NCBI GenBank assembly: GCA_026386995.1
Contig: JAPLMO010000305.1
Span: 1 to 24,633, forward strand
DNA: 24,633 bases
Reading direction: 5' to 3'
Source: Planctomycetota bacterium
GTDB taxonomy: Bacteria > Planctomycetota > Phycisphaerae > FEN-1346
The notes beneath the pieces were generated by a model, which was not told the origin of the DNA, made no database searches, and saw only the letters and a list, made by a program, of their open reading frames with translations. Below are positions 731 through 21,490 of the stretch, one piece after another (positions within the stretch are counted from its first letter, which is position 1; each line of letters starts with the position of its first letter). The position numbers and the translations under genes are program-made.

Positions 731-862
731 CTAGTAGTCCGTCAAGATTGAAAGTGTGAGTAGCATGAGCGCGGCGGGCAGTCTTGCCCGCCGCGCGGTG
801 GGCAAGACTGCCCACCGCGCGACTGGCTTCAACTCACAGAAACGCGTTTGACGGACTGCTAG
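731..862. repeat. Nested palindromic MITE/REPIN-like element (CTAG-ended)
   Basis: The outer inverted repeats are CTAGTAGTCCGTCAA (731-745) and TTGACGGACTGCTAG (848-862), with one mismatch. Inside are two overlapping hairpins: 769-796 (stem GCGCGGCGGGCA, loop gtct) and 793-820 (stem GCGCGGTGGGCA, loop agac). The two loops are complementary, so the core can fold either as two hairpins or as one long one. The right end overlaps the 3' end of the small transporter subunit and provides its TAG stop at 859-861. Length is 132 bp with no coding capacity. It shares the GCGCGG(C/T)GGG stem type with repeats near 9980 and 15870. Confidence 0.75.
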
Positions 863-972
863 GACGTTTTGCCCGAGTCCTTATCCCGAAGCGTTCGGAC
901 CAGGCAGTAAGCGAACAGGCCCAGGATCAGGAGCCAACTGGCGCCCAGGAATATCCAGCCGCCGAGGGTCAT
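859..972 (-). CDS. MetS-like small subunit of NSS transporter (37 aa)
   Basis: This is a 37-residue protein with one hydrophobic helix (about residues 5-25), then a basic RTLRDKDSGK tail that should be cytoplasmic by the positive-inside rule. Its ATG overlaps the stop of the upstream symporter gene (ATGA, 4-base overlap), indicating translational coupling and a shared complex. Small single-helix partners of this kind are known for bacterial NSS transporters (MetP/MetS family), where they are needed for transport. Family assignment rests on size, topology and position, not on a specific motif. The stop codon lies inside the terminal repeat of the adjoining palindromic element, so the original C-terminus may have been altered. 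Confidence 0.65.
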   Translation of the reverse strand: MTLGGWIFLGASWLLILGLFAYCLVRTLRDKDSGKTS

Positions 973-2522
973 GCGGGCACCTCCGGGGCGCGTCGGCGCC
1001 GCCAGACGATCCAGACCAGGCATAGCAGTTCCGCCAGGAGCGAGAGGAGCATGATTCTCGCCCCCAGCACGTAGCGCGCGTTCTCCGGCGCGACATTCTC
1101 CATCATCGCCGTCGGAATGCCTTCCTGCCACAGCCACCAGCCCAGGATGGCCAGCAGGACCAGCGGCGTCACGTACTTGATGATCCAGCGGTAGAACCGC
1201 GGGATCGTGATGTCCGACCCCACGTGCAATTCCGTCCACGCCTTTTCCATGCCGAAGACCCATCCGAAGAGGATCGTCTCGATCGTGGCGAAGAGCACCA
1301 GGCAGAACGTGCCGCCCCAGAAGTCCAGTTCGCCCAGGACGCCGTTGCCGATGAAAAGGATCGCCGCATGGCACAGGACGAACGAGTTGACGGCAAAGAT
1401 GAGCGTCGCCTCTTTCTTCGAGAGACCGAACTCGTCCTCCAGGAATGCGACGGCCGGCTGGGCCAGCGAAATCGACGACGTGATGCCCGCAATGAACAGC
1501 AGGATGAACCACGCGAAACCGAAGAGGCCCCCGTACGGGAACTGCTGAAGCACCAGCGGCATCGTCACGAAGCCGAGGTCAAAGGTGCCGCCCTTGGCGA
1601 ACTCGGCGGTCCCTGCGGGCCCGAAGAAGGCGAACGCCGCCGGAATGACGATGCTTCCGCCGAGGATGACCTCGGCCACTTCGTTCGTTGCGGCGGCCGT
1701 GAGGCCCGACAGCGCCACGTCGTCCTTCGGCGTCAGGTAACTGGCGTACGTCAGGATCACGCCGATGCCCACGCTCAGCGTAAAGAATATCTGCCCCGCC
1801 GCCGCAAGCCAGACTTTGGCGCTGCCCAGGGCCGACCAGTCGGGATTCCAGAGAAACCCAAGGCCGTTGACGACGTTCCAGTCGGGCTGGGCCGCATCGG
1901 GCGTGCCGACCGCAAACACGCGCACCATCAGGACCGCGCCCAGGACGAACAGGATCGGCAGGCCGTACTTGCACACCGCCTCGATGCCGCGCTGGACGCC
2001 CAGGTACACGATCAGCGTGTTGGCGGCAAAGGTGACGAGGAAAAACAGGTACGCCGGCGTGAGGCTCGAGAAGTACTCGTTTTTGACCGTGCCCTGGTAG
2101 CCCTTGAGGAAGGCGGCCATCGAGGCCTTGTCGTGGCAGCCGTCATAGGCCCCCGTCAGGGCGAACCAACTGTAGCCGAGGAGCCACGACTCGATGTACA
2201 CGTAATAGATGTAAATGACAACCGGCCCGAAGATGCCGATGACCCCGAAGTACTTGATGAACCGGTTCTTGTTCCAGAGGGTGTGGAACATGCCCGGGGC
2301 GGTGGAGTGGCCGAAGCCGCCGCCGAAGCGGCCGATGGTCCACTCGATCCACATGAGCGGCAGGCCCAGCAGCAGGAGCGCGACGAAGTAGGGGATGAGG
2401 AACGCCCCGCCGCCGTTCTGCGCCGCCTGGCCGGGGAACCGCAGAAAGTTCCCCAGGCCGATGGCGCTGCCGGCCACGGCCATGATGATCCCCAGTTTGC
2501 TGCCCCATCGCTCGCGCGCCAC
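969..2522 (-). CDS. Sodium:solute (neurotransmitter-family) symporter
   Basis: This is an inner-membrane Na+-coupled symporter of the NSS/SNF family (LeuT fold), about 517 residues with roughly 11-12 hydrophobic helices. The first helix carries the family hallmark AGSAIGLGNFLRFP with the unwound substrate/Na+ site, followed by NGGGAF and the TM2 motif GLPLMWIEWTIGR. I chose the GTG at 2522 because AGGAG lies 6 bases upstream at 2529-2533; the ATG at 2564 would add 14 residues without a good ribosome-binding site. The substrate is probably an amino acid but cannot be read from sequence. The gene overlaps the small subunit gene by four bases, forming a two-gene operon. Confidence 0.92.
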   Translation of the reverse strand: MARERWGSKLGIIMAVAGSAIGLGNFLRFPGQAAQNGGGAFLIPYFVALLLLGLPLMWIEWTIGRFGGGFGHSTAPGMFHTLWNKNRFIKYFGVIGIFGPVVIYIYYVYIESWLLGYSWFALTGAYDGCHDKASMAAFLKGYQGTVKNEYFSSLTPAYLFFLVTFAANTLIVYLGVQRGIEAVCKYGLPILFVLGAVLMVRVFAVGTPDAAQPDWNVVNGLGFLWNPDWSALGSAKVWLAAAGQIFFTLSVGIGVILTYASYLTPKDDVALSGLTAAATNEVAEVILGGSIVIPAAFAFFGPAGTAEFAKGGTFDLGFVTMPLVLQQFPYGGLFGFAWFILLFIAGITSSISLAQPAVAFLEDEFGLSKKEATLIFAVNSFVLCHAAILFIGNGVLGELDFWGGTFCLVLFATIETILFGWVFGMEKAWTELHVGSDITIPRFYRWIIKYVTPLVLLAILGWWLWQEGIPTAMMENVAPENARYVLGARIMLLSLLAELLCLVWIVWRRRRAPEVPA

Positions 2523-2651
2523 GCCCTTCTCCTGCGAGTCCGGGTTGCCGGGAACAGCATACAAACCGGGCGGCGGCAGTCAACTATTGCGCGGCAGCCT
2601 TGCGCGGCCTTGTCGGCCGGCGGCCAAGCCGCTATACTTCGCGCCCCATGC

Positions 2652-2855
2652 AGGGTGGGTGCTCCGCACCCACGCGGTCACAACGTGTCAGAAGGTGGTG
2701 GGTGCACAACACCCGTATGTGTTTAGCGTGTCGCGCCGGCCCGTATCTTACGCGGCGTAGCGCGGGGCCTTGTGCCCCGCGTTTACGAACACGCGGGGGA
2801 TAAACCCCCGCGCTACACGGCGCGGCCACGCTAAACACATACCAGCACCCACCCT
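2652..2855. repeat. Triple-nested palindromic element upstream of HAD gene
   Basis: Three levels of inverted repeat are nested here. The outermost arms are AGGGTGGGTGCT (2652-2663) and AGCACCCACCCT (2844-2855). The next are GTATGTGTTTAGCGTG (2715-2730) and its exact complement at 2827-2842. The inner ones are GTAGCGCGGGG (2757-2767) and CCCCGCGCTAC (2806-2816), enclosing two hairpins with cores ccttgtg and gataaac. A separate GTGGGTGC/GCACCCAC hairpin lies at 2655-2673. It occupies nearly all of the gap between the symporter and HAD genes and ends 20 bases before the HAD start codon. No coding potential. Confidence 0.8.
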
Positions 2856-2875
2856 ACTTTAAGGCAGGAGAAGCG

Positions 2876-3544
2876 ATGAACCGTCGGGCAGTCATCTTCG
2901 ACATGGACGGCGTTCTCATCGACAGTTACCACGCCCATCTGGAGGCGTGGCAGAAGTTGGGCGAGAAACTCGGCCGGCCTGTCACCGAAGAGGTCTTCGT
3001 GCCGACCTTCGGTCGCGTTAACCGCGAAATCTTCCACCACCTCTGGGGCGATGCGTTCACCGACGCCGAGATCGACCGCTGGGGCGACTGGAAAGAGCAG
3101 GCCTATCGCGAGATCATCCTGAAGCGTTTTCCCGCGATGCAGGGCGCCGCCGATCTGCTGGACTCGCTGAAGGGGACCGGGTTCGCCCTGGCGCTCGGCT
3201 CCAGCGGTCCCCCCGAGAACGTGGCGGCGGCCCTGGCGGGCCTGCGGCGGGAGACCATCTTCGACGCCATCGTCACCGGCCGCGAGGTGAAGGAAGGCAA
3301 GCCGCACCCGGAAGTGTTCCTGAAGGCGGCGGAGAAACTACGTCTTTCGCCGCGCTGCTGCGCCGTCATCGAGGATTCTCTGGCGGGCCTGGAGGCGGCT
3401 GCGCGGGCGGGGATGACGCCCATCGGCCTGACGGGCACGTTTACGCGCGAGCGCCTGGCCGAGAAGGCGGCGCTGGTGGTCGAGTCGCTGCGGGAACTGA
3501 CGCCCGAGCGCATTGCCGAGATGATTGACAGCAAAGTCTGCTGA
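2876..3544 (+). CDS. HAD-superfamily hydrolase, beta-phosphoglucomutase-like
   Basis: This is a cytosolic phosphatase or phosphomutase of HAD subfamily I, 222 residues, the usual length. Motif I is FDMDGVLID with nucleophile Asp9 and acid/base Asp11. Motif II is GSSGPP at 108-113, the motif III lysine is in GKPHPEVF (Lys142), and the metal-binding acids are in VIEDSLAG (Glu166, Asp167). A helical cap follows motif I. GGAGAAGCG precedes the ATG. Substrate is not determinable; beta-phosphoglucomutase and other sugar-phosphate phosphatases share this pattern. It is the only plus-strand gene between 1 and 9 kb and is bracketed by related palindromic repeats in opposite orientation, so it may have been inserted or inverted as a unit. 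Confidence 0.9.
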   Translation: MNRRAVIFDMDGVLIDSYHAHLEAWQKLGEKLGRPVTEEVFVPTFGRVNREIFHHLWGDAFTDAEIDRWGDWKEQAYREIILKRFPAMQGAADLLDSLKGTGFALALGSSGPPENVAAALAGLRRETIFDAIVTGREVKEGKPHPEVFLKAAEKLRLSPRCCAVIEDSLAGLEAAARAGMTPIGLTGTFTRERLAEKAALVVESLRELTPERIAEMIDSKVC

Positions 3545-3548
3545 AAAT

Positions 3549-3662
3549 GGTGGGTGCAGAGCACCCACCCTACATGAACTCGGATAGTAGCGCGGGGGTT
3601 TATCCCCCGCGCACAACGAGTATCGCGGACCGTTCTCCGCGGGGCACAAGGCCCCGCGCTAC
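3549..3662. repeat. Paired palindromes downstream of HAD gene
   Basis: The hairpin GGTGGGTGC-aga-GCACCCACC (3549-3569) starts five bases after the HAD stop codon and could serve as its transcription end. It is followed by a doublet bounded by GTAGCGCGGGG (3587-3597) and CCCCGCGCTAC (3652-3662), holding two hairpins with cores tttat and cacaagg. The reverse complement matches the doublet at 2757-2816, including both core words in the same order, so the two copies face each other across the HAD gene. The spacer between the hairpins differs in length and sequence. Confidence 0.75.
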
Positions 3663-3684
3663 GGTGCGTGTCCAACGGGTCGCC

Positions 3685-3718
3685 TTCTCCCCTCTCCCTC
3701 GCTGGGGAGAGGGGAGAA
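3685..3718. repeat. Pyrimidine/purine hairpin CTCCCCTCTCC type
   Basis: A perfect 13-base inverted repeat, TTCTCCCCTCTCC (3685-3697) and its complement (3706-3718), has an 8-base loop. It ends three bases beyond the dciA stop. There is no T-tract on either side, so a rho-independent terminator is doubtful. The same family recurs near 16703-16801 and is widespread in bacterial intergenic DNA. Confidence 0.6.
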
Positions 3719-3721
3719 CGT

Positions 3722-4126
3722 CTACCGCCGGCCGGGCTTCGGCGGCGGCTTCTTTTCGAGGCGGAACTTCAGGTCCTGGACGAAGTAGGTCTTAACCTCG
3801 CGGCGGAGGGTTTCCAGGAGTTCTTCTTTGCGGAAGTTGCGGAGTTCCGACAAGAGGGCGCTTGAGTCGACGACGATTGTGAGCACACCGGCGCTGGGGC
3901 CGCGGTTGGCCAGGCGCTCGATGCTCGTGTGGGCGGCCTCGGGGCCGAGCAGGCGCTGCCAGACGTCCCAGATCTTGTCGCGGTCCGAGACGCGCGTAAA
4001 CCCGCTCCGCTTGGCCCAGCGGCGGACGACCTCGCCGACGGGCTCGGCGCGGTCCCGCCCGTAGTCCGAGGCTTCGGGGGGCAAGGCGGGCTTGCGCGGG
4101 CGATTTTCCGAGGATTGGGAGATCAT
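3722..4126 (-). CDS. dciA: DUF721 / DciA-family protein, replicative helicase loading factor
   Basis: This is a 134-residue cytosolic protein with a DUF721 domain over about residues 30-125. The diagnostic C-terminal half is GVLTIVVDSSALLSELRNF, then KEELLETLR and a closing DLKFRL strand. DciA is the ancestral bacterial protein that helps place DnaB helicase at the origin, in lineages lacking DnaC/DnaI. Its position two genes from dnaN and near dnaA fits that role. The N-terminus (1-25) and the KKPPPKPGRR tail are basic and likely disordered. The ATG at 4126 has only weak upstream purines. It is separated from the sulfatase by a repeat, so it may not share that transcript. Confidence 0.8.
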   Translation of the reverse strand: MISQSSENRPRKPALPPEASDYGRDRAEPVGEVVRRWAKRSGFTRVSDRDKIWDVWQRLLGPEAAHTSIERLANRGPSAGVLTIVVDSSALLSELRNFRKEELLETLRREVKTYFVQDLKFRLEKKPPPKPGRR

Positions 4127-4153
4127 TCGTCAAGTCCCAAAAAAAGTATTAAT

Positions 4154-4227
4154 CGCAGAGAACGCGGAGAGCGCAGAGAAGACTTTTCTTCTTAAAAACC
4201 AAAGATTCTTCCTCAGCGTTCTCTGCG
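4154..4227. repeat. CGCAGAGAACGC inverted repeat, copy 1
   Basis: The arms are CGCAGAGAACGC (4154-4165) and GCGTTCTCTGCG (4216-4227), with a purine-rich imperfect extension inside and an AT-rich centre. It fills most of the 113-base gap between the dciA start and the sulfatase stop. A longer copy lies at 16917-17015. Markedly more AT-rich than the genes around it. Confidence 0.75.
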
Positions 4228-4239
4228 TTCAAAAAACCG

Positions 4240-5808
4240 TTACGTCCGGCTGCGGCCCTTGGCTCGCACATCTTCTAGGAGAGCCGAGAGTTCCTTGACG
4301 ATTTCCGGGTGCTCGGCGGCCACGTTCCTGGTTTCGCCGAGGTCCTCGGCCAGGTTATAGAGTTGCGGGCCGGGCGCTGCGCCTTTGCCGTCACCCTTGG
4401 CTTTCGCCTTGGCGTACCTGCCGCCGGGGTTGGCGGGGATGAGTTTCCACGGCCCTTTTCGGATGGCCAGGTTGTTGGTGCCGTTGGTCTGCGTCACGAG
4501 GTGGTCGCGCACGGGCTTATCGCGTTTCTCGCCCAGAATGGCCGGCAGGGCGTTGAAACTGTCCGGCCCGGCGTCGGCGGGCAGCAGTTGGCCGGCGACG
4601 GCCGCAAACGTGGCCAGCATGTCCACCAGCGAGATAAGTTCGTCGGAAGTCGATCCGGGCTTGATGCGCCCCGGCCACCGCGCGAGAAAAGGCTCGCGCG
4701 TGCCGCCTTCCCACAAACTGCCCTTGTAGCCGCGAAGGGGGCCGTTACAGAGGTGGCCGTTGGCATCCGCGATGGCACCGTCGGCATAGCCGTCGTCCAT
4801 CACGCCGCCGTTGTCGCTCGAGACGATAACGAGGGTGTTCTCCGCAAGTTTCAGGCGGTCGAGCGCCTCCAGGACCTTGCCCACGGCGTTGTCGAACTGC
4901 TGGATGACGTCGCCGCGCGTGCCGCAGCCGCTCTTGCCGCTGCGCTCTGGGCTGGGGACGCGCGGCACGTGGATGTCGTGCGTGGCGAAGTAGAGGAAGA
5001 ACGGTGCGCCTTTACTGCGCTCGATGAACCCGACGGCCTTTGAGGCGAGCGTGTCGGCCATCGTCTCGTCGTTCCAGCGGGCGGCCTTGCCGCCGCTCAT
5101 CCAGCCGATGCGGCTGATGCCGTTGATGATGGTGGCATCGTGGCCGTGGCTGGGCTTCATCTTAAGGAGTTCGGGGTTCTCCTTGCCGGTCGGATCGTCG
5201 CCGACCTTATTCTTATAACTAGTTCTAATTGGGTCGCCGGGGTCGAGGCCGACCACGCGCCGGTTCTCGATGAAGACGCACGGCACGCGGTCGCCCGTGG
5301 CGGGGAAGATGAAGGCGTAGTCGAAGCCGACGTCCAGCGGGCCGGGGCGGATCTCTTTATTGTAGTCGAGGTCGCCCTTCCCCAGGCCCATGTGCCACTT
5401 GCCGACGACGGCCGTCGCGTAGCCGAACTCCTTGAGGAGCGACGGCGTCGTCGGCATGGCGGGGTCGAAAGCCAGGGGCGCCTCGCCGCTTAGGATGCTG
5501 GAGCCGGCGGGGCTGCGCCACGCGTACTGGCCCGTGATGAATGCGTAGCGCGTGGGGGTGCAGACGGCGGCGGGGGCGTGGGCATCGGTGAAACGGACCC
5601 CCTCGCGGGCCAGGCGGTCGACGTTGGGGGTCTTTACTTTCGTGGCGCCGTAGGGGCCGAGGTCTCCGTAGCCGACGTCGTCGGCAAGGATGAAGACGAT
5701 GTTGGGCTTGCATGGCGCTGGCTCGCCGGCCGCCGACCGCATCCACCGCGGTGCAAGCATCGCTGCCGCACCCAGCCCGAGCGCCTTGCAGAAACCCCGG
5801 CGATTCAT
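4240..5808 (-). CDS. Tat-exported sulfatase (arylsulfatase A family)
   Basis: This sulfate-ester hydrolase has 522 residues and a twin-arginine leader (NRRGFCK, hydrophobic stretch to about residue 26), so it should act outside the cytoplasmic membrane after folding. The metal-binding start is PNIVFILADDVGYGDLG (Asp43, Asp44). The formylglycine signature CTPTR begins at Cys83, which needs an FGE-type maturase not seen here. The KWHMG lysine and the SSDNGG metal site later in the chain are present. Substrate is unknown; such enzymes are abundant in Planctomycetota, where they act on sulfated polysaccharides. The ATG lies only 28 bases after dnaN, preceded by AAGGCGGG, so it may be read through from dnaN. 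Codons 5203-5233 are unusually AT-rich. Confidence 0.93.
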   Translation of the reverse strand: MNRRGFCKALGLGAAAMLAPRWMRSAAGEPAPCKPNIVFILADDVGYGDLGPYGATKVKTPNVDRLAREGVRFTDAHAPAAVCTPTRYAFITGQYAWRSPAGSSILSGEAPLAFDPAMPTTPSLLKEFGYATAVVGKWHMGLGKGDLDYNKEIRPGPLDVGFDYAFIFPATGDRVPCVFIENRRVVGLDPGDPIRTSYKNKVGDDPTGKENPELLKMKPSHGHDATIINGISRIGWMSGGKAARWNDETMADTLASKAVGFIERSKGAPFFLYFATHDIHVPRVPSPERSGKSGCGTRGDVIQQFDNAVGKVLEALDRLKLAENTLVIVSSDNGGVMDDGYADGAIADANGHLCNGPLRGYKGSLWEGGTREPFLARWPGRIKPGSTSDELISLVDMLATFAAVAGQLLPADAGPDSFNALPAILGEKRDKPVRDHLVTQTNGTNNLAIRKGPWKLIPANPGGRYAKAKAKGDGKGAAPGPQLYNLAEDLGETRNVAAEHPEIVKELSALLEDVRAKGRSRT

Positions 5809-5836
5809 GACCCGCCTTCTTTTCCGCTTCCCGGCA

Positions 5837-6958
5837 CTAAACGATGCTCACGGGCATAACAACATGGGTGAACGTGCGGCCCTCGGTGATGACGCCCGGC
5901 TTGGACGGGCCCTTGAAGGCGAACGTGAACTGTTCGTCGTCGATCACCTTGACGGCATCCATCAGGTATTGCGGGTTGAAGCCTATTTCGAGCGTTTCGC
6001 CGGCATAATCGGCGGGCATGCGGATTTCAGCCTCGCCCATTTCGGGCGTGCGGCTGGTGACCACGAGTTCCCCGTCGGCGAACTTCAGGGTCACGCCGCG
6101 CGATTCCTCGTTCGTCAGCAGGGCGGCCTTCCGGACGGCCGCCAGGAACGCCGCCGCGCCTAGGACGGCCTTCTTCTCGCAATCCTTTGGAATCACATCT
6201 TCATACTTAGGGAAGTGCCCGTCGACGAGGCGCGAGTAGACGATGCGTCTGCTGCCGTCGGACAGGGCGGATTCCAGGAGGATGTCTTTTTCGCTCACGA
6301 CGACGCGGACCGGCCCCTTGGCCTCGCCCATGTCGGTCAGACACCGCTCAATCAGGAGCATCGCCTTGCTCGGGACGATCGCGCTTTTCATGGCCGCCGG
6401 GCCGTCCTTGCACTTGCCCTTGACGAGACTCAGACGCCGGCCGTCGGTGGCCACAAGGATCAGGTTGGAACCCTCAACTTCCCACAGGACGCCGTTAAGG
6501 GCATATCGCGTGTTCTCCTTGGCGGTGGCGAAGAGCGTGCGTTTGATCATACTCACGAGGTCGTCGGCCTCGATCGTAAACGCCCCCGCGGCCGGAAACT
6601 CGGGCACCTGCGGAAAGTCGGCCGGATTGTCGCCGAGGACCTTGAACCTCGCCCCGGGGGCGACGATCTCGGTTTCCTGATCGGTGGAGGTGATCGTTAC
6701 GGTATCGGCCTCCAGTTCCCGCAGGATGCCGTTAAGCCGTTCGGCCGGCACGAGGCCGTCGCCGGGTTGTTGGACTTCCATCTTGTCCAACTCTATCCGG
6801 ATGCCGACCTCCAGGTCTGTGGCCAGCAAGGTCATCCGCTCCTTGCCGGCCTCCATTTTGATGCAACCCAAAGCGGGCTTCGGACTCTTGGACGCCACAA
6901 CCCCGGACGCCACCTGAACAGCACGGGTCAAGGTTGCTCGGTCGCAAACCGTTTTCAT
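5837..6958 (-). CDS. dnaN: DNA polymerase III beta sliding clamp
   Basis: This is the processivity clamp of the replicase, forming a ring dimer around DNA; 373 residues, the normal length, with three repeated clamp domains. Recognisable family stretches are MKTVCDRATLTRAV at the N-terminus, LLATDLEVGIR, VPAERLNGILREL, ATDGRRLSLV in domain II, and the terminal HVVMPVSIV tail. AGGAGGTC lies 4-11 bases before the ATG, a strong ribosome-binding site. It is downstream of dnaA on the same strand, the classical dnaA-dnaN order, separated by a 318-base gap that looks like an origin. Confidence 0.97.
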   Translation of the reverse strand: MKTVCDRATLTRAVQVASGVVASKSPKPALGCIKMEAGKERMTLLATDLEVGIRIELDKMEVQQPGDGLVPAERLNGILRELEADTVTITSTDQETEIVAPGARFKVLGDNPADFPQVPEFPAAGAFTIEADDLVSMIKRTLFATAKENTRYALNGVLWEVEGSNLILVATDGRRLSLVKGKCKDGPAAMKSAIVPSKAMLLIERCLTDMGEAKGPVRVVVSEKDILLESALSDGSRRIVYSRLVDGHFPKYEDVIPKDCEKKAVLGAAAFLAAVRKAALLTNEESRGVTLKFADGELVVTSRTPEMGEAEIRMPADYAGETLEIGFNPQYLMDAVKVIDDEQFTFAFKGPSKPGVITEGRTFTHVVMPVSIV

Positions 6959-6974
6959 GGACGACCTCCTGGTT

Positions 6975-7236
6975 CTGTTTGACTGTTATTAGTTTAAGAG
7001 TAAGTAAGAAGTAATAGTAACCGTCATAAGCCGTGTGAAAAACGAACCATCCGCCACAGTCACACATAAAGTCTTGCTGCTACTGGTGTTACGACGCCGA
7101 TTTTGGCCGGCGGGTGTGGAAAGAATGTGAAATACCCGGTGGCGCCCGCTGCCCAAGTCGGTTACCTTAATTCGGTCCTCCGACAGCCTGTTGCGTGTTT
7201 CCATGATCGTCACACGTGCGCCACCGGTTTTCCACA
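6975..7236 (-). other. Candidate oriC in dnaA-dnaN gap
   Basis: Read in the dnaA-to-dnaN direction (minus strand): TTTTCCACA-like sites face each other at 7228-7236 and 7115-7123, just outside a perfect CCGGTGGCGC/GCGCCACCGG inverted repeat (7136-7145, 7218-7227). Further on come a degenerate box TTTTTCACA (7042-7034), a 13-base spacer, then five consecutive triplets TTA CTA TTA CTT CTT (7020-7006) that fit the complement of the DnaA-trio rule. The AT-rich stretch 7005-6975 follows. This is the order box, trio, unwinding element known from Bacillus-type origins. Boxes deviate by one or two bases from TTATCCACA, so the call rests on layout. Confidence 0.5.
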
Positions 7237-7276
7237 CTATTTCAGCGGGCCGGTTGGGCTGTGCCCTGAAGCGGCG

Positions 7277-8852: not shown

Positions 8853-8906
8853 CGTAAAGATGCCCGTCCCGGTAACCCCTCAATTCTTGGCGCTCCTTCC
8901 CCTGCC

Positions 8907-8997
8907 GGGTGGCATGCCCACGCCGCCGTTTGCGTGGGCATGCTCCCTGGCCGCGGCGACAGCATGCCCAGCGAACAGCGCGCCGGGCATGCCACCC
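8907..8997. repeat. Nested GGCATGCC palindromic element
   Basis: The outer arms GGGTGGCATGCCC (8907-8919) and GGGCATGCCACCC (8985-8997) are perfect 13-base complements. Inside, GCATGCCCACGC/GCGTGGGCATGC (8912-8923 / 8932-8943) forms a 12-base hairpin, and GCATGCCC (8962-8969) pairs with the right arm for a second one. Same doublet-hairpin design as other gaps. It lies between the dnaA promoter and the pilin-like gene. Confidence 0.7.
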
Positions 8998-9084
8998 TGC
9001 TTACGTACTGCTCGACGCAACTGTAACTGACGCCTTACGTGGGCGGCGGGGATTCCCTGGATTTTTCGGGCCAAAAGGCCGACA

Positions 9085-9948: not shown

Positions 9949-10026
9949 GACAGCGCTACTCCCGTGTGGTGCGCGGCGGGTCAGGAGACCCACCGCGCAA
10001 ATGCCCAAGTTGCGCTGTACTACTAG
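9949..10026. repeat. CTAG-ended palindromic element at ABC transporter 3' end
   Basis: The core hairpin is GCGCGGCGGGTC (9971-9982) with GACCCACCGCGC (9987-9998), loop agga, one mismatch. Imperfect outer arms contain ACAGCGC(T/A)ACT on each side (about 9949-9960 and 10006-10018). The right end reads CCTAGTAGT on the minus strand, matching the end of the 731-862 element, and supplies the TAG stop of the ABC gene (10025-10023). Confidence 0.55.
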
Positions 10027-12092: not shown

Positions 12093-12153
12093 GTTTAACC
12101 ATCGCCGCACACGGCGACGGATGCCAACCGATCGTGGCCGTGTGCGGCCGCGG
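12093..12153. repeat. Double-hairpin element, GTTTA-family copy 2
   Basis: GTTTAACC (12093-12100) is followed by hairpin TCGCCG-CACA-CGGCGA (12102-12117), then GGCCG-TGTG-CGGCC (12136-12149). It is a diverged relative of the element at 13607-13673. The right outer arm is degraded. It lies in the leader of the ABC gene. Confidence 0.6.
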
Positions 12154-12186
12154 CGCGGCGCGGCCGGCCGACGTCTATAAAGATAT

Positions 12187-12647: not shown

Positions 12648-12838
12648 GACCCTGCCCTTCCGTGCTTTTCAAGCCTGGTATCTTAAACTTGCGATCTCGA
12701 ATCCGGAATTTCGGATTCGACGCCAACAGACACAACACGCGCCCGGCAAGCCGGGCGGCTAAATATTGCGCCCACCGCGGCGACTCGCCGTGGCAGGCCA
12801 GGCAACCTTCGGCGCCCCACACGCACGGGGCCGACGCA

Positions 12839-13563: not shown

Positions 13564-13673
13564 TTTAGCCGTCGCCGCGCTGTTGTTTGGTCGTTGGCTT
13601 GCCGTCGTTTAGCCGTCGCCGCATACGGCGACGGTCGTTAAATAATCGCGGCCGTATGCGGCCGCGGCTAAAC
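13564..13673. repeat. Double-hairpin element, GTTTA-family copy 1, with extra half copy
   Basis: The outer arms are GTTTAGCC (13607-13614) and GGCTAAAC (13666-13673). Hairpin 1 is CCGTCGCCG-cata-CGGCGACGG (13613-13634); hairpin 2 is GCGGCCG-tatg-CGGCCGC (13648-13665). An incomplete half copy, GTTTAGCCGTCGCCG, stands just upstream from 13564. The loops cata and tatg are complementary, and copy 2 at 12093 has the matching pair caca/tgtg. It fills the rpsP-trmD gap. Confidence 0.75.
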
Positions 13674-13687
13674 AAGGCCGGCAGGGC

Positions 13688-14062: not shown

Positions 14063-14175
14063 TCTGTCGCTCCTTCTCCGCCACAGGGGGCCCGACTTGC
14101 GCAGTCGCCCGCCTGTCGAACCGCACATCCTACCCCCCGGATGGCCGCGTGGCAATCAAAAAAAGCGGGTCCGTT

Positions 14176-14325
14176 GTAACCCCTCCGTTTTGGGCGTTCC
14201 AGATTACGCAATGTGGCACGGCTGGCTTGTCCAGCCGTGGGAAACGTCGCCGGTCTTCCGCCACGGCTGGACAAGCCAGCCGTGCCACATTCCACAATCC
14301 AGGGCGCCCGAAACCGAGGGGTTAC
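14176..14325. repeat. Double-hairpin element C, copy 1
   Basis: The arms 14211-14240 and 14261-14290 are perfect 30-base complements around a 20-base centre. Each arm is itself a hairpin, CACGGCTGG-cttgt-CCAGCCGTG and its mirror with loop acaag. Outer arms GTAACCCCTC (14176-14185) and GAGGGGTTAC (14316-14325) enclose imperfectly matching flanks. It lies upstream of rpsP and downstream of the four-cysteine gene, filling the 330-base gap. A further sequence at about 14352-14370 resembles the outer arm of copy 2. Confidence 0.85.
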
Positions 14326-14392
14326 GGGTCGTTTTCAGCCGCGTAGTGCGTAGGGGGGCACGCAACTGAGACTGGAACCGTGTACGGCGGCG

Positions 14393-14623
14393 TCAGGCCT
14401 GCGGGGGCGGGCCCTTCTCCGGCCGCACGACAAGATACCCCTGCTGGATGAGCCAGTGATGGAACTCGTAGGTCGTGTGGATGCAGTCGCTCTTGCAGAC
14501 GGCGCGGACCTCTTCGCCCTCCGCCGAGGCCTCCCCCGCGCTGTCCAGCAAGCGCTGGATGGGGCACTGGATGGCCTTGCAGAACTCGCGCCGCTGGTAG
14601 TCGATGTACCCCGGGATCGCCAT
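14393..14623 (-). CDS. Small four-cysteine protein of unknown function
   Basis: 76 residues from the second of two close ATGs; GGAGG lies 6 bases before ATG 14623, whereas ATG 14629 directly abuts it. Four cysteines form two pairs, Cys15-x4-Cys20 (FCKAIQCPIQ) and Cys43-x3-Cys47 (VCKSDCIH), separated by an acidic linker (30-40). An aromatic/His stretch HTTYEFHHWLIQQGYLVVRPEKG follows. The arrangement could bind zinc or an iron-sulfur cluster; both are inference. No signal peptide or membrane segment is seen. Codon use matches the genome. It is bracketed by two facing copies of repeat C. I do not recognise the family. Confidence 0.7.
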   Translation of the reverse strand: MAIPGYIDYQRREFCKAIQCPIQRLLDSAGEASAEGEEVRAVCKSDCIHTTYEFHHWLIQQGYLVVRPEKGPPPQA

Positions 14624-14740
14624 GTGCATCCTCCAACTTCGGCCACCCTGACGGGCGGCAATTGACAGGCCAGGGAATAGTAGGGTCTCTCGGACTCGCG
14701 GTCCACAAAAAATGGTTGCCCGTGCCGAGGGCGTAAGGGG

Positions 14741-14876
14741 TCAGTTACGTGCGCCCCTCCAGATTGCACGGTGTGGCACGGCTGGCTTGTCCAGCCGTGG
14801 CGGAAGGCCCGCGAGGCTTCCCACGGCTGGACAAGCCAGCCGTGCCACACCTGATAGGGAATGCGCACGTAACTGA
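14741..14876. repeat. Double-hairpin element C, copy 2
   Basis: It has the same 30-20-30 design as copy 1: perfect arms 14771-14800 and 14821-14850, centre 14801-14820, outer arms TCAGTTACGTGCGC (14741-14754) and GCGCACGTAACTGA (14863-14876). Its centre matches the reverse complement of the copy 1 centre at 16 of 20 bases, so the two copies are in opposite orientation around the four-cysteine gene. The rest of the 14624-14989 gap shows no gene. Confidence 0.85.
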
Positions 14877-14989
14877 GGCCGTACCCGAGGGCCGGTATTT
14901 TTTCTCGCCGCTCGGGCCGTAGCGCGGTATTCTGTGAGGCCGGTTGACGACGGCAATCCATCCACAAAGGACCCATAAAGGAGACGGCA

Positions 14990-15835
14990 ATGGTTTCGAG
15001 GCGAGATTTTCTGAAGATCGGGGCTGCGGGTGCGGCGGCGCTGGCGGCGGGCGTGGGGGTCGGCAAGATACTCCAGGCGGCTGAAACCGGCAAGCCCAAG
15101 GTCGCCGTCCAACTCTATTCGGTCCGCGACCGGTGCGGCAACGACCTGGCCGGCACGATCGCGGCCATCGGCAAAATGGGCTACAAGGGCGTCGAGTTTG
15201 CCGGCTACTACGGCAAGAACGCCGCTGACCTTCGCAAGATGCTGGACGACAACGGCCTGGTCTGCTGCGGCACGCACACGGGCCTCGAAACCCTGACGGG
15301 CGACAACCTGGCCAAGGCCATGGACTTCAACAAGACCCTCGGCAACCCCTTCCTCATCGTTCCGGGCATGAGCGCCAAGACCAAGCAGGATTGGCTGGAC
15401 AAGGCGAAGCAGTTCAACGAGATCTCCGACAAGGTCCGCCCGGCGGGCTTCTGGGTCGGCTACCACAATCACTCGGCCGAATTCCAGCCGCTCAAGAGCG
15501 GCGAGAAGCCCTGGGACCTCTTCTTCGGCAACACCAAGAATGACGTCGTCATGCAGTTCGACACGGGCAACGCCGTCGGCGGCGGCGGCAAGGCCGTCGA
15601 TTACCTCAAGCAGTACCCCGGCCGGGCGCTGACGATCCACTGCAAGCCCTCGTCGAAGTCCAACCCCAAGGCCGTCATCGGCGAAGACGAACTGCCCTGG
15701 AAGGAAATCTTCGAGATCTGCGAGACCACCGGCAACACCCAGTGGTACATCGTGGAGTACGAGGTCGGGGGCGTCCCGTCGCTGGAAGCCGTCGAGAAGT
15801 GCCTGGCGGGGATGAAGAAACTCGGCCGGGCGTAG
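14990..15835 (+). CDS. Tat-exported sugar phosphate isomerase/epimerase (xylose isomerase-like TIM barrel)
   Basis: 281 residues with a twin-arginine leader (SRRDFLKIGAAGAAALAAGVGVG, about residues 3-27), so it acts outside the cytoplasmic membrane. The remainder is an AP-endonuclease-2/xylose isomerase-like barrel: VAVQLYSVRDR, GYKGVEFAGYYGK with the first conserved Glu, a VGYHNHSAEF strand with His and Glu ligands, MQFDTGNAVGGGG, and a late IVEYE Glu. Such proteins commonly act as sugar or inositol isomerases/epimerases using a divalent metal; the substrate is not evident. AAAGGAG lies shortly before the ATG. Exported versions are frequent in Planctomycetota. It starts the plus-strand block. 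Confidence 0.88.
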   Translation: MVSRRDFLKIGAAGAAALAAGVGVGKILQAAETGKPKVAVQLYSVRDRCGNDLAGTIAAIGKMGYKGVEFAGYYGKNAADLRKMLDDNGLVCCGTHTGLETLTGDNLAKAMDFNKTLGNPFLIVPGMSAKTKQDWLDKAKQFNEISDKVRPAGFWVGYHNHSAEFQPLKSGEKPWDLFFGNTKNDVVMQFDTGNAVGGGGKAVDYLKQYPGRALTIHCKPSSKSNPKAVIGEDELPWKEIFEICETTGNTQWYIVEYEVGGVPSLEAVEKCLAGMKKLGRA

Positions 15836-15864
15836 GCACACCTGGTCGATACCTTAACGCAGAT

Positions 15865-15896
15865 TTGCGCGGCGGGGCTCCGTACCCGCCGCGCAA
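15865..15896. repeat. GCGCGGCGGG hairpin
   Basis: TTGCGCGGCGGG (15865-15876) and CCCGCCGCGCAA (15885-15896) are perfect 12-base complements with loop gctccgta, in the 72-base gap between the isomerase and amidohydrolase genes. The stem is shared with the elements at 769-820 and 9971-9998 but the loop differs. It could act as a terminator or attenuator, but has no T-tract. Confidence 0.6.
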
Positions 15897-15907
15897 GCAG
15901 GTACGCC

Positions 15908-16690
15908 ATGCAAGTCGCCGCCATCCAACCCGACATCGCCTGGGAGAACAAGCCCGCCAACTTCGAGCGGGTCCGGCGGCTCGTTGCGGCGGTGCGGCCG
16001 GAGGCCGGGGGCCTGGTGGTGCTGCCCGAGATGTTCGCCACGGGCTTCAGCATGGATGCTGGCCGCATCCACGACGGGCCGCAGCGCGAGACGGAAGTCT
16101 TCCTGGCCGAAATGGCCCGCGAGCGCGGCGTGCACGTGATCGGCGGCGTGGTGACCCTCAACCCCGACGGCCGCGGGCGGAACGAGGCGGTCGTCTTCGG
16201 CCCCGACGGCCGCGAGGTCGCACGCTACGCCAAGATGCACCCGTTCTCGTTCGGCGGCGAGCCAGAGCATTACGCCGCCGGCGACCGCGTTGTCACCTGC
16301 CGCATCGGCGAATTCACCGCGGCCGTCACCGTCTGCTACGATCTGCGATTTCCGGAACTCTATCGCGCGGCGGTGCTGGCGGGGGCGGACCTGCTTATCG
16401 TGATCGCCAACTGGCCCGCCCCGCGGGCGGCCCACTGGTCGGCCCTGCTGGCGGCTCGGGCGATCGAGAACCAGGCTTACATGGTCGGCGTCAACCGTTG
16501 CGGCAACGACCCCAAGCACGCCTTCTTGGGCCACAGCCAGGTCATCGGGCCGCGCGGCACGGTGATCGCCGACGCCGGAGAGCGCGAGGGCAGCATCACG
16601 GCGGCGCTCGACCGGGAAGACCTGAAGGCGTACCGGCGGGAGTTTCCGGCGCTGGCCGACATCCGCAAGGACCTTGTCGGCGGGCGGTGA
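15908..16690 (+). CDS. Carbon-nitrogen hydrolase (nitrilase superfamily, omega-amidase-like)
   Basis: This is a 260-residue cytosolic amidohydrolase. The catalytic triad is visible: Glu41 in VVLPEMFATGFS, Lys109 in YAKMHPFSF, Cys143 in VTVCYDLRFPELYR. The METGFS-like context (EMFATGFSMD) and the KMHPFSFGGE stretch resemble the YafV/omega-amidase branch, which removes the amide of alpha-keto acid derivatives of glutamine and asparagine in methionine-salvage clean-up. That assignment is by resemblance only. CAGGTACGCC before the ATG is a weak ribosome-binding site. It follows the isomerase gene in the same direction. Confidence 0.9.
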   Translation: MQVAAIQPDIAWENKPANFERVRRLVAAVRPEAGGLVVLPEMFATGFSMDAGRIHDGPQRETEVFLAEMARERGVHVIGGVVTLNPDGRGRNEAVVFGPDGREVARYAKMHPFSFGGEPEHYAAGDRVVTCRIGEFTAAVTVCYDLRFPELYRAAVLAGADLLIVIANWPAPRAAHWSALLAARAIENQAYMVGVNRCGNDPKHAFLGHSQVIGPRGTVIADAGEREGSITAALDREDLKAYRREFPALADIRKDLVGGR

Positions 16691-16702
16691 TTATGCCGTT
16701 GA

Positions 16703-16801
16703 CCCTCTCCCCTTGGGGGAGAGGGTGGCCGAAGGCCGGGTGAGGGGTGCCCCTGGCCGGCAACTCTCCCCCCCCTCTCCCTCGCTGGGGAGAGGGGAGA
16801 G
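16703..16801. repeat. CCCTCTCCCC-type hairpin pair
   Basis: The hairpin CCCTCTCCCC (16703-16712) / GGGGAGAGGG (16716-16725) is followed by GGCCGAAGGCCGGGTGAGGGG, then a second CTCTCC-rich hairpin (16764-16801) like that at 3685. This arrangement is a well-known widespread intergenic repeat of high-GC bacteria. It begins 12 bases after the amidohydrolase stop. Confidence 0.7.
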
Positions 16802-16916
16802 ATGGGCCACGTCGCCGCGCGTCCGGCACATTCCGCCGCCCCGTTGGGGGCGGTCAGTTTCCGGCCTTGCTTGTTCGCTTGCAACCCCCGGGTTCTCCAC
16901 TACAATAAAAAGTTCT

Positions 16917-17015
16917 AACGCAGAGAACGCCGAGAACGCAGAGAAAAACTTCTTTGGGTTTTTTAGGAAAAAAAGGGTCTTGGTTTCTCTCCGCGCTCTC
17001 TGCGTTCTCTGCGTT
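16917..17015. repeat. CGCAGAGAACGC inverted repeat, copy 2
   Basis: Arms of about 33 bases with mismatches (16917-16949 and 16983-17015) are built from repeated GCAGAGAACGC words, around an AT-rich centre with T- and A-runs. Related to 4154-4227. Lies in the 590-base gap before gyrB. Confidence 0.75.
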
Positions 17016-17056
17016 GAAACCCTTCTTTGTAAGGGTTGGGGTGTGTGCGTAGCACA

Positions 17057-17083
17057 TGGGTGCAGAGCACCCACCCTACATGA
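17057..17083. repeat. GGGTGC-aga-GCACCC hairpin, second location
   Basis: These 27 bases are identical to 3551-3577 in the same orientation, including the flanking CCTACATGA. The left outer arm is truncated, so the stem is only six bases (17058-17063 with 17067-17072). Confidence 0.7.
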
Positions 17084-17134
17084 CTTGCCACAATCTGCGG
17101 CCACACCCGGCGGAAAAAGCAGGCCAATCTAAGG

Positions 17135-17162
17135 TTGGATTCCCCGGCAAAAAGACTATAAT
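17135..17162 (+). promoter_or_regulatory. Predicted sigma-70-type promoter for gyrB
   Basis: TTGGAT (17135-17140), 16 bases, then a perfect TATAAT (17157-17162). A start near 17170 gives a leader of about 110 bases containing a strong hairpin GCCGGGC-cgga-GCCCGGC (17227-17244) 19-36 bases before the weakly spaced GAGAGGAAG ribosome-binding site. The hairpin may affect translation; no supercoiling-response element can be read directly. Confidence 0.55.
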
Positions 17163-17202
17163 ATCCGACGACGAAAACGCACCCAACCCGGCCGGGGGAT
17201 GA

Positions 17203-19812
<2,610 letters not shown>

Positions 19813-19830
19813 CGGCAACGGCAAATTCTC

Positions 19831-19917
19831 AATGTTGAATGTTGAAGTCCAGGCTGACCGGCGGACGCGCGGGACTGCACTTGGTAATTGGTCATTGGAC
19901 ATTCAACATTGAACATT
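19831..19917. repeat. AATGTTGAATGTTGAA inverted repeat
   Basis: An arm at 19831-19850 (AATGTTGAATGTTGAA then GTCC) is matched with one or two differences by the complement of 19897-19917. The centre contains TTGGTAATTGGTCATTGG. AT-rich, filling the gyrB-rmuC gap. This word set is a recurrent intergenic repeat in several bacterial phyla. Confidence 0.7.
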
Positions 19918-19948
19918 TTCCGCGGCCGTTTGAAAGGCGGGGCTTGCC

Positions 19949-21283
19949 GTGACCGATTTCCTGCTTGGCCTGAACTTGTTGCTCCTCCTCGGCGTCCTGG
20001 GGTTCCTCATCGTCCTGGCGAAGCGCCGCGGCCAGGGCGGCAATGCCGAGGCCGAGGCCCAACTCCGCTCCGAGGCCGCCGGCCTCCAAGCCCAGGCCGC
20101 CGAACTCCGCACCCAGATCGCCGCCCTCCAGTCGCAGGCCGCGGCCCTGCACGAGCAGGTCCAGGCCGAGCACGGGGCACGCACGGGCGCCGAGGCGCGC
20201 CTCCAGGCCGAACGCCAATCCTTCAAAGATAAACAAGCTCTGCTCGACAAGGCCGAGGAGAAACTCAAGGACGCCTTCACCGCCCTTTCCGCCAAAGCGC
20301 TCGAGAACACCAGCCAGCAGTTCCTCACCCAGGCGGAGGAGCGCCTCAAGCCCATCCGCGACCTGCTGGCCTCCTACGAAGGCCACCTCCGGGAGGTCGA
20401 GAAGGCCCGCACCGACGCCTACGGCGGCCTCAAGGCCCACCTCGACACCCTCGCCCAGGCCCACCAGATCCTCCAGAAAGAGGCCCACCAACTCTCCACG
20501 GCCCTCCGCTCGCCCACGGTGCGCGGCCGGTGGGGCGAGATGACCCTGCGGCGCGTCGTCGAGGTGGCCGGCATGTCGCCGCAGTGCGACTTCGAGGAGC
20601 AGGCCGGCGCCACCACCGACGAGGGCAGGCTCAGGCCCGACATGAAGATCAAGTTGCCCGGCGGCCGCATCATCGTCGTCGACTCAAAGGTCCCCCTGGC
20701 CGGGTACATGGACGCCCTGGAGGCCAAGGACGAGGCCGCACGCCAGGCCGCGCTCGGCCGCCACGCCCAGCAGGTCCGCAGCCGCGTCCAAGAACTCAGC
20801 AAGAAGGCCTACTGGGACCAGTTCGCCGGGGCCGCCGAGTTCGCCGTGCTCTTTCTGCCGGGCGAATCGTTCTTCTCTGCCGCCCTCGAGCAGGACCGCT
20901 CGCTCATGGAAGACGCGATGGCCAACAAGGTGTTCCTCGCCACGCCCACCACGCTCATGGCCCTCTTGAACGTCGTGGCCCACGGCTGGCGCCAGCAGGA
21001 AATGGCCGAGAATGCCGAGCGCATCGGCGAGGCTGGCAAGGAACTCTTCGAACGCCTCGTGAAATTCGTCGAACACTTCGCCGGCATCGGCGACGGCCTC
21101 AGGCGGGCCGTCAAAGCCTACGACGGCGCCGTCGGCTCATACGAAGCCCGCATCCAGCCTGCCGCGCGGCGGCTTGCCGACCAGGCCGCCATTTCCGATA
21201 AGGCCCTGCCCGAAGTCCCCGCCATCGACGGCCCCACTCGCATGCTCGGCCCGGGCGAGGAGTCGAAGCCCGCGGAGGGGTAG
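19949..21283 (+). CDS. rmuC: DNA recombination protein RmuC
   Basis: 444 residues, typical for RmuC. An N-terminal membrane helix (about 6-24, LLGLNLLLLLGVLGFLIVL) is followed by a long Ala/Gln/Glu-rich coiled coil (about 30-190). The RmuC nuclease-like domain comes next: TVRGRWGEMTLRRVVEVAGM near residue 190, LRPDMKIKLPGGRIIVVDSKVPLAGY (about 230), and FLPGESFFSAALEQD with LATPTTLMALLNVVAHGW. RmuC limits recombination at inverted repeats and has been linked to defence; here it sits in a genome rich in inverted repeats. The GTG start at 19949 has a weak AAAGGCGGGG upstream. Confidence 0.93.
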   Translation: MTDFLLGLNLLLLLGVLGFLIVLAKRRGQGGNAEAEAQLRSEAAGLQAQAAELRTQIAALQSQAAALHEQVQAEHGARTGAEARLQAERQSFKDKQALLDKAEEKLKDAFTALSAKALENTSQQFLTQAEERLKPIRDLLASYEGHLREVEKARTDAYGGLKAHLDTLAQAHQILQKEAHQLSTALRSPTVRGRWGEMTLRRVVEVAGMSPQCDFEEQAGATTDEGRLRPDMKIKLPGGRIIVVDSKVPLAGYMDALEAKDEAARQAALGRHAQQVRSRVQELSKKAYWDQFAGAAEFAVLFLPGESFFSAALEQDRSLMEDAMANKVFLATPTTLMALLNVVAHGWRQQEMAENAERIGEAGKELFERLVKFVEHFAGIGDGLRRAVKAYDGAVGSYEARIQPAARRLADQAAISDKALPEVPAIDGPTRMLGPGEESKPAEG

Positions 21284-21308
21284 GGGCGAGCAAGTGGCCT
21301 CTCGAACA

Positions 21309-21490
21309 ACACGCGCCCATCAAGATGGGCGGCTAACCAAACAGCATCGCGCTGGGCATTGCGCTTGGCATCGCGCCTGGCGACGCGCCGAATGATGTTG
21401 ATTCTTGGTTAGCCGCCCATTCTAATGGGCGTGTGTTTCTTGTGATGTTGTTTCTTGGTTAGCCGCCCATTTTAATGGGCGCGTGTTTTT
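21309..21490. repeat. GCCCAT-ATGGGC element with 12-base tandem core and half copy
   Basis: About 32-base imperfect inverted arms (21309-21340 and 21405-21436) each contain a GCCCAT-loop-ATGGGC hairpin. The core holds four 12-base tandem units of the GCATCGCGCTGG type (21344-21390). A further half copy stands at 21455-21490, whose hairpin CGCCCAT-ttta-ATGGGCG is followed by CGTGTTTTT and could work as a rho-independent terminator for rmuC. Confidence 0.75.

Follow-up and report, generated by a model that had tools for sequence, protein, structure and literature searches.

The window analysed here, a stretch of 24,633 nucleotides from a Planctomycetota bacterium, has gaps between its genes that are rich in hairpins. 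In 19 hand-set gaps (4845 bp), scans that required perfect stems found 29, 21 and 14 hairpins with stems of at least 7, 8 and 9, respectively, against means of 2.59, 0.67 and 0.23 and maxima of 7, 3 and 2 in 200 dinucleotide shuffles. In the 19,788 bp treated as coding, the corresponding counts were 24, 4 and 1 against 13.1, 4.1 and 0.95 (20 shuffles), so that there is an excess at stem 7 but none from stem 8 upwards. Thus, the intergenic hairpins are genuine, and the preliminary description of this DNA was right that they crowd the intergenic regions. It had also placed a hairpin doublet in most gaps. By reading, 12 of the 17 gaps longer than 60 bp contain a paired or inverted-repeat element, 3 contain only unpaired hairpins and 2 are empty. 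Doublets of two hairpins occupy 10 of these 12, but the gaps at 4127 (CGCAGAGAACGC) and 19813 (AATGTTGAA) hold one long inverted repeat apiece. Pattern scans of viral_contigs gave no match. The individual elements are listed in Table 1.

Table 1. Hairpin and inverted-repeat elements of the window
Positions	Strand	Element	Remarks
731..862		Doublet GCGCGGCGGGCA-GTCT / GCGGTGGGCA-AGAC (769-820), no spacer, outer arms CTAGYAGTCCGTCAA	Arm pair score 13
2651..2857		Nested composite: GGTGGGTGC REP pair, right REP interrupted within the loop by 128 bp (2715-2842)	Sequence by eye; insert has 16-bp arms GTATGTGTTTAGCGTG, arm score 19, and contains the GTAG-CGCGGGG REPIN
2757..2816		GTAG-CGCGGGG REPIN, loops CTTGT and TTTAT	Forms the kernel inside the nested composite
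3549..3573	-	GTAG-GGTGGGTGC REP, single, TCT triloop
3587..3662		GTAG-CGCGGGG REPIN, loops TTTAT and CTTGT, outer arms absent	Arm score 6
3685..3718		CCCTCTCC hairpin	Shares an exact 29-nt stretch with 16772-16800
4149..4232		CGCAGAGAACGC single inverted repeat, no hairpin doublet	0 hairpins in gap
8876..9043		GTGG-CATGCCC REPIN (8909-8995)	Outer arms resemble those of CACGGCTGG elements
9966..9999	+	Single GCGCGGCGGG hairpin, one mismatch	GTGG one base off
12093..12168		Degenerate TTTAG CCGTCGCCG pair	76% identity over 76 nt to 13607-13682
12740..12765	-	TTTAG-C-CGCCCGG-CTTG hairpin, unpaired	Word missing from the first list
13607..13675		TTTAG-CCGTCGCCG-CATA / TTTAG-CCGCGGCCG-CATA pair	Outward tags
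14176..14325		GTGG-CACGGCTGG-CTTGT REPIN (14213-14288) midway between 65-nt arms	Arms 86% complementary, GTAACCCCTC type
14733..14884		Second GTGG-CACGGCTGG-CTTGT REPIN (14773-14848)	Outer arms GTAAGGGGTCAGTTACGTGCGC
15865..15896		Single GCGCGGCGGG hairpin
16702..16800		Two CCCTCTCC hairpins as a pair
16901..17031		Second CGCAGAGAACGC inverted repeat
17057..17079	-	GTAG-(GG)TGGGTGC REP, single, TCT loop
19811..19930		AATGTTGAA single inverted repeat, no hairpin doublet
21302..21493		Three GTTAG-C-CGCCCAT hairpins	Two share an orientation, one is inverted

The best-defined set consists of REPs and REPINs tagged with GT[AG]G, which account for 8 of the 20 listed elements and include five tail-outward pairs. 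Four of these (2757-2816, 3587-3662, 14213-14288 and 14773-14848) appear under a strict setting as inverted REP pairs with a short spacer, and the fifth (8909-8995) has one mismatch and a longer loop; all five have the outer foot GT[AG]G. This foot is missing or inconstant in the TTAG, GCGCGGYGGG, CAGAGAACGC, CCCTCTCC and AATGTTGAA elements.

The ten families initially proposed were obtained by counting stem words, and the number does not survive once tags and loops are taken into account, as GCGCGGGG and CACGGCTGG have a common tag and loop type, and CAGAGAACGC and AATGTTGAA each form one long inverted repeat. Sorted in this way, the elements comprise a class with a GT[AG]G tag and a YTYRY pentaloop (GCGCGGGG, CACGGCTGG), one with a GTAG tag and a TCY triloop (GGGTGC), GTGG-CATGCCC, a class with a TTAG tag and a tetraloop (CCGTCGCCG, GCCCAT and GCCCGG), and GCGCGGYGGG, whose tag is not constant; CCCTCTCC and two single inverted repeats form further classes. 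Both AATGTTGAA and GGCATGCC occur at one place each within the window.

We regard the TTAG-tagged pairs as a probable sister class, mobilised by a Y1 enzyme of some kind. The proteins of subclass 1.2 TnpAY1 (PMC6006769, consulted in excerpt) have the motif Y---Q--HH, and TAG-ended hairpins, whose tag is common to the TTAG hairpins of the window, flank many of them in Planctomycetota. We found the motif in 43 of 46 proteins of this type (L286, L288 and L309 are without HH), a set made up of 6 genes from one proxy genome (G149, see below) and 40 further listed matches, with L261-L270, of the same score range, left out. One locus with short flanks was dropped from the flank survey of these genes, 14 of 20 loci (L241-L260) served as class 1.1 controls, and the Y1 class labels are motif matches rather than tree-based assignments. 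The characteristic unit of subclass 1.2, tested as a GC hairpin, a short spacer, TAG and a second hairpin, is not found on either strand of the window, where the loops also differ, so that it is the tag that links the TTAG hairpins to this subclass.

Other genomes served as proxies. Ranked by GyrB among 392 sampled genomes, the closest relatives are distant (G097 at 59% and G149 at 55%), and the class of G097, with 4 genomes, gave none closer. The G149 sample consists of 80 loci (1.49 Mb), 60 taken by contig-length order, 9 for CACGGCTGG, 10 for Y1 genes and 1 for gyrB, and its densities are thus not genome averages. It contains 232 GT[AG]G-tagged REPs, and neighbouring ones are arranged head-head in 48 cases, head-tail in 26 and tail-tail in 5. 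Among tagged REPs, loops in tag orientation outnumber their reverse complements by 192 to 1, and the TCY triloop was seen on 14 distinct stems and the YTYRY pentaloop on 6. In G149, the CACGGCTGG hairpin pattern GGCACGGCTGGNNNGTCCAGCCGTG has 20 matches against 0 in the control; among the matches listed, 7 of 10 have the CTTGT loop of the window and 3 of 10 CTCGT, and some form tail-outward pairs. One TnpAREP-like gene of this genome (NF047646 at 98.4 bits, cut-off 80; match to PDB 4er8, E 9.2e-8) has six hairpins of the GTGG-GCGGGGC type downstream and further copies of the word within its open frame, and this type is the commonest tagged word in the sample (82 of 232). Of 19 Y1 matches, 17 were read: a word with at least four copies lies within 900 bp in 11 of the 17, and such words stand on both sides in 5 of the 17, although these counts include the copies beside the gene (the 14 copies of AAAGACTC, for example, are spread over just 3 contigs, and the G149 shuffle of that word count is a single one). 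A count of 11 Y1 genes in a genome means at least 11. In G311, GTAG-tagged hairpins of one loop type flank both sides of all three NF047646 matches over the cut-off, a count that leaves out three weak matches (L327-L329).

The picture is not uniform. No GT[AG]G-tagged hairpin was found at any of the three RAYTs over the cut-off in G020 or at the four Y1 loci of G097, and neither CACGGCTGG nor the GCGCGGGG word of the window was seen to flank a Y1 gene in the G149 loci read. The GCGCGGGG pattern GTAGCGCGGGGN7CCCCGCG occurs once in one of 392 Planctomycetota genomes, which is chance level, as the backward control occurs once in each of two. Among 123 loci, none but the window contains its words in their strict forms, and five others have a relaxed CAGAGA form.

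Taken together, these observations lead us to propose, with a probability of roughly 75%, that the GT[AG]G-tagged elements are REPs and REPINs that travel as non-autonomous passengers of several Y1 (HUH) RAYT/TnpAREP enzymes and have become nested by landing near or in palindromes. Hairpins, tags, tail-outward pairing, tag-oriented loops, nesting and Y1 genes with words of their own in related genomes are all directly seen; that RAYTs moved the copies in the window, and that such RAYTs are present in its genome, is what we infer from them. The host would probably have, now or formerly, several RAYT/TnpAREP enzymes, each of which may recognise, on single-stranded DNA, a tag and a loop of its own. 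Stem words would differ, so that many of them could build up. New elements would insert beside or within older palindromes, and nested hairpins could arise in this way. Counting against mobility, we saw no insertion into a known empty site. The REPIN/RAYT reading suggested at the outset is therefore retained for the GT[AG]G part, given the anatomy of the window and the Y1 genes of G149 and G311. For that part, the accompanying idea of a general mechanism for double hairpins corresponds to the known Y1/RAYT mechanism, already described for several enzymes acting in parallel (PMC6006769 and PMC3733652, both in excerpt), but CAGAGAACGC and AATGTTGAA, not being doublets, do not conform to it. Our explanation leaves CAGAGAACGC, AATGTTGAA, CCCTCTCC and GCGCGGYGGG outside its account.

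The hairpins had further been described as lying inside outer inverted repeats. Such repeats are clear at 2757-2816, 14213-14288 and 14773-14848 and shorter at 769-820, but there are none at 3587-3662; at 8909-8995, both arms match arms of both CACGGCTGG elements despite the different kernels, but not each other. In these comparisons, the 99.9% level of the null is a score of 13, the 12 chosen elements are not independent of one another, and, of the 11 high arm pairs, one is a known REP in a flank and four are the two arms of the same element. Shared terminal inverted repeats with differing interiors are thus seen in the window, and they are also seen in G149, where 94 copies of the end TAACTCGCCACGATTNT were counted when one mismatch was allowed (control 0). 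In the loci read, this end bounds 22 complete elements, 15 with a GTGG-GCGGGGC REPIN and 7 with a GTAG CAAGCG-type REPIN, and one element sequence is repeated at 7 places with different flanks.

These data raise the possibility that the outer inverted repeat is the moving unit. On this view, a TIR-reading transposase (Y1 "TIRYT" or DDE) would mobilise miniature TIR elements, into which REPINs were taken up as interchangeable kernels. The recurring ends and arms around different kernels would be expected of such elements, GGGGTCAG in one arm of the window fits GGGGWSAS, a motif of some TIRYT repeats (PMC3733652), and two shell ends share contigs with Y1 genes at about 1.2 and 1.9 kb (C168, C803). 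Nevertheless, we consider it doubtful, as the shells on those two contigs face away from the Y1 gene and do not bracket it, no target-site duplication is visible by eye at the 22 element sites, and many REPINs are shell-free: arms stay within the 95% level of cross pairs in 33 of 42 G149 head-head dimers and in all three from other planctomycete loci, and the same holds for 3587-3662. Moreover, all 22 complete shells contain a REPIN, and A. variabilis is likewise reported to be without empty palindromes (PMC3733652).

It is improbable that the hairpins are instead immobile host functions kept by selection, such as terminators, mRNA stabilisers or supercoiling sites. The confinement to intergenic DNA of the excess over chance at stem 8 and above would suit such roles, as would the T-rich tails behind two TTAG hairpins (13647-13666, 12740-12757). 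However, no family reaches the Rfam gathering score in the window, and identical composite copies lie at different G149 places. The terminator reading in particular was rejected: positions 1-20000 have 23 terminator-like sites, where shuffles give 16.5 on average (sd 4.6), and the GT[AG]G REPs are not among them, except for one half of the split GGTGGGTGC REP. High GC does raise the number of chance hairpins, and the coding count from stem 8 equals chance, but the intergenic count already refutes an origin as chance palindromes of GC-rich DNA, and words, tags and loops recur, so that we give this explanation practically no weight.

Returning to REPINs moved by RAYTs, we are dealing with a known kind of element that is unusually diverse and nested. 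The comparisons that follow draw on excerpts of the cited papers. In Pseudomonas fluorescens SBW25, three groups of REPINs have been described, each beside its own RAYT (PMC3116915). The elements of the window resemble them in having two inverted REPs and in being mostly intergenic, but several tag and loop types occur here within 24 kb, some of them nested, and the RAYT link comes from proxies. A REP or REP dimer inside a longer palindrome is known from the A. variabilis GTAG-15 and T. roseum GTAG-23 repeats (PMC3733652), whereas in the window and in G149 one shell family surrounds different REP kernels, an arrangement for which we found no published description. The outer inverted repeats and the motif fit in one arm are shared with TIRYT/TIRtron repeats (subclass 2.1; PMC3733652, PMC6006769), but we saw no TIRYT gene bracketed by such arms.

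How REPINs spread has been called a central unresolved issue (PMC3116915, in excerpt). The co-occurrence of several REP types, with tag and loop kept over different stems and with shared outer repeats, provides natural tests of RAYT recognition and insertion, and it also advises caution, given that the number of REP families is inflated when stem words are counted. We tentatively suggest that larger palindromes of these planctomycetes may have interchangeable cores, namely REPINs that differ in RAYT specificity, perhaps because single-strand transposition favours the exposed loops of existing palindromes, and that several Y1 enzymes, each inserting its words into the hairpins of the others, may account for the diversity of words. 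If this is true, successive rounds would build nested hairpins like the one at 2651-2857.

The doubled hairpins of the preliminary description are real. Apart from them, the window carries ordinary bacterial genes (by Pfam, an NSS transporter, a HAD hydrolase, DciA, TrmD, RmuC and others) and gyrB, whose product is closest to Planctomycetota (among 392 sampled genomes, 59% for genome G097 and 55% for genome G149). Using the ORF list and Pfam matches, we delimited 19 intergenic gaps manually (4845 bp in total), treated the remaining 19788 bp as coding, and counted perfect hairpins (stem of at least 8, loop of 3 to 8) against dinucleotide shuffles. The gaps hold 21, against a shuffle mean of 0.67 and a maximum of 3 (200 shuffles), and the coding part holds 4, with 4.1 expected (20 shuffles); at a stem of at least 7, the coding part shows an excess too (24 vs. 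13.1). Inverted and direct repeat searches of the window confirmed the stem words first listed. On our reading, a pair or inverted repeat occurs in 12 of the 17 gaps longer than 60 bp, and 10 of these 12 contain hairpin doublets. The CGCAGAGAACGC and AATGTTGAA elements are single long inverted repeats.

A scan of the window for GT[AG]G beside hairpins found canonical REPs (tagged hairpins) in tail-outward pairs. Elements with this tag, singles included, make up 8 of the 20 listed, and a second set, with a TTTAG or GTTAG tag and a four-base loop, makes up 4 (TTAG set in the table). The GCGCGGYGGG and CCCTCTCC hairpins are without a constant tag.

Elements and selected genes of the window
Feature	Position	Remark
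GTAG-CGCGGGG tail-outward pair		two in window; GT[AG]G scan
GTGG-CACGGCTGG tail-outward pair		two in window; GT[AG]G scan
GTGG-CATGCCC tail-outward pair		one in window; GT[AG]G scan
GTAG-GGTGGGTGC		single copy and one split pair; GT[AG]G scan, split pair by eye
TTAG-set element	13607-13675	
TTAG-set element	12093-12168	degenerate copy of 13607-13675, 76% over 76 nt
TTAG-set element	12740-12765	
TTAG-set element	21302-21493	three hairpins
CGCAGAGAACGC single long inverted repeat	4149-4232 and 16901-17031	
AATGTTGAA single long inverted repeat	19811-19930	
gyrB	17281-19812	by sequence matches
AT-rich inverted repeat ACACTATTGGCG ... CGCCAATAGTGT with T run	9089-9125	by eye; upstream of pilin-like gene
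Pilin-like gene	9182-9661	

As a proxy we sampled 1.49 Mb of G149 in 80 loci, 20 of them picked for REP, Y1 or gyrB contigs. This sample contains 694 perfect hairpins with a stem of at least 8, compared with 268 in a single shuffle; 44 stem words have three or more copies, compared with none in the shuffle. CCTCTCCC is, in addition, the commonest stem word there, with 38 copies on 24 contigs. Among its GT[AG]G-tagged REPs, loops seen at least three times run in one orientation from the tag in 192 cases vs. 1 reversed, a ratio to be expected in part wherever a single word has been copied, the informative part being loops common to several stems: a TCY triloop on 14 and a YTYRY pentaloop on 6. 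By the same rule, eight of nine strict tagged REPs in the window have YTYRY (GCGCGGGG and CACGGCTGG together) and one has TCT, in a scan that requires perfect stems. The proposed figure of about ten families is thus an over-count, given that GCGCGGGG and CACGGCTGG share a loop in the window and several stems share one in G149.

A Y1 match is present in 245 of the 392 sampled Planctomycetota genomes. The pattern GGCACGGCTGGNNNGTCCAGCCGTG occurs in only one of the 392, G149, with 20 matches (control 0); at 7 of the 10 places listed the loop is CTTGT, as in the window, and some copies stand in tail-outward pairs and in hybrid pairs with sister words. A hybrid REPIN (inverted REP pair) was also seen by eye in genome G311 (L180), with two different stems, a TTCAT loop on both REPs and GTAG outward. 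G149 has 19 Y1_Tnp matches, and we read the surroundings of 17: a hairpin word of at least four copies lies within 900 bp of 11, 5 are flanked by such words on both sides, and 6 lack them. At L171 and L232 in this genome, NHWH-type Y1 genes have AAAGACTCCGGGAGTCTTT hairpins on either side. The Y1 protein of contig C34 is TnpAREP-like (NF047646, 98.4 bits; PDB 4er8, E 9.2e-8); six GCGGGGC hairpins lie downstream of its gene, and the open frame itself holds copies of this word, four of them after the core's first methionine. In this frame (L203, 6927-7955, reverse strand), four copies of its own REP word stand in tandem, in frame, before the HUH motif. Of the 232 tagged REPs in the G149 sample, 82 carry GCGGGGC, more than any other word, and REP insertions inside tnpAREP genes have been described for subclass 2.4 (PMC6006769). 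In G311, GTAG-tagged hairpins flank all three NF047646 matches over the cut-off on both sides; among six weaker matches examined, L322 is flanked in this way, L325 has one stem on its two sides with GTAG at one of them, and the other four are without such hairpins. None of three over-cut-off matches in G020 has GT[AG]G-tagged hairpins, G039 has no NF047646 match, and the window's own words were seen at none of the Y1 genes in the loci read.

Some REPINs are nested. Among 276 pairs of arms compared outside the kernels (inner units) of 12 window elements, 11 score at or above the 99.9% level of 1500 shuffled pairs, with 0.3 expected; in four of the 11 the two arms belong to the same element, and another reflects a known REP lying in a flank. 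Four pairs match arms of 8909-8995, which has a CATGCCC kernel, with arms of 14213-14288 and 14773-14848, which have CACGGCTGG kernels. The GTAG-CGCGGGG REPIN at 2757-2816 is enclosed by 16-bp arms, GTATGTGTTTAGCGTG, and this unit in turn interrupts a GTAG-GGTGGGTGC REP within its loop. At 2757-2816 and at L176, L194, L196, L199 and L212, one arm abuts the REPIN by 1-2 nt and the other lies 18-39 nt off. Among 42 head-head dimers in G149, 9 have outer arms above 95% of cross pairs and 8 above 99%, three of these eight being neighbouring REPs; none of three dimers at other planctomycete Y1 loci has such arms. Five G149 dimers have one shell (outer inverted repeat) in common, and the shell end, with no more than one mismatch allowed, has 94 copies genome-wide against 0 for the control; many of them are close to contig ends. 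The loci read contain 22 complete shells, 15 with a GTGG-GCGGGGC REPIN and 7 with a GTAG CAAGCG-type REPIN; one sequence was found at 7 places, no target duplication is visible at the 22, and an incomplete shell (L361) has a different hairpin inside. REP dimers inside palindromes have already been published (PMC3733652); we found no published report of one shell with different REPIN kernels in the literature searched.

Hairpins also accompany another group of Y1 genes. We read 46 planctomycete Y1 loci (L134, L138, L141, L143, L145, L146 and L271-L310), 43 of which have the Y---Q--HH motif of subclass 1.2. Outward TAG-ended hairpins lie on the left at 18, on the right at 17 and on both sides at 13, against 4 and 6 the wrong way round, at most 4 for other tags, and 2, 0 and 0 at 14 class 1.1 controls. 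An outward unit of a GC hairpin, a short spacer and a TAG hairpin occurs on the left at 17 of the 46, on the right at 16 and on both sides at 12 (wrong strand 3, 3 and 0; ten shuffles 0); it was not found in the window. Flanking inverted repeats exceed the 99% control at 22 of 45 loci, and at 15 of the 45 same-strand repeats do so as well, as tandem arrays would give. Table 1 of PMC6006769 gives "no" under REP for subclass 1.2, and our literature searches found no paper reporting a link to TAG hairpins.

TnpAREP is described as binding single-stranded DNA at the tag and hairpin and cutting at the adjoining dinucleotide, and REPINs are considered to be mobilised in trans (PMC8266576, PMC3116915). 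We infer that the window's copies were moved by enzymes of this type; the mechanism in the window's own genome is unproved. The preliminary idea of transposase-moved paired REPs is right in kind for the GT[AG]G-tagged elements, and it counted too many families. Several TnpAREP-type enzymes per lineage would produce more than one set of words, a situation that G149 and G311 show.
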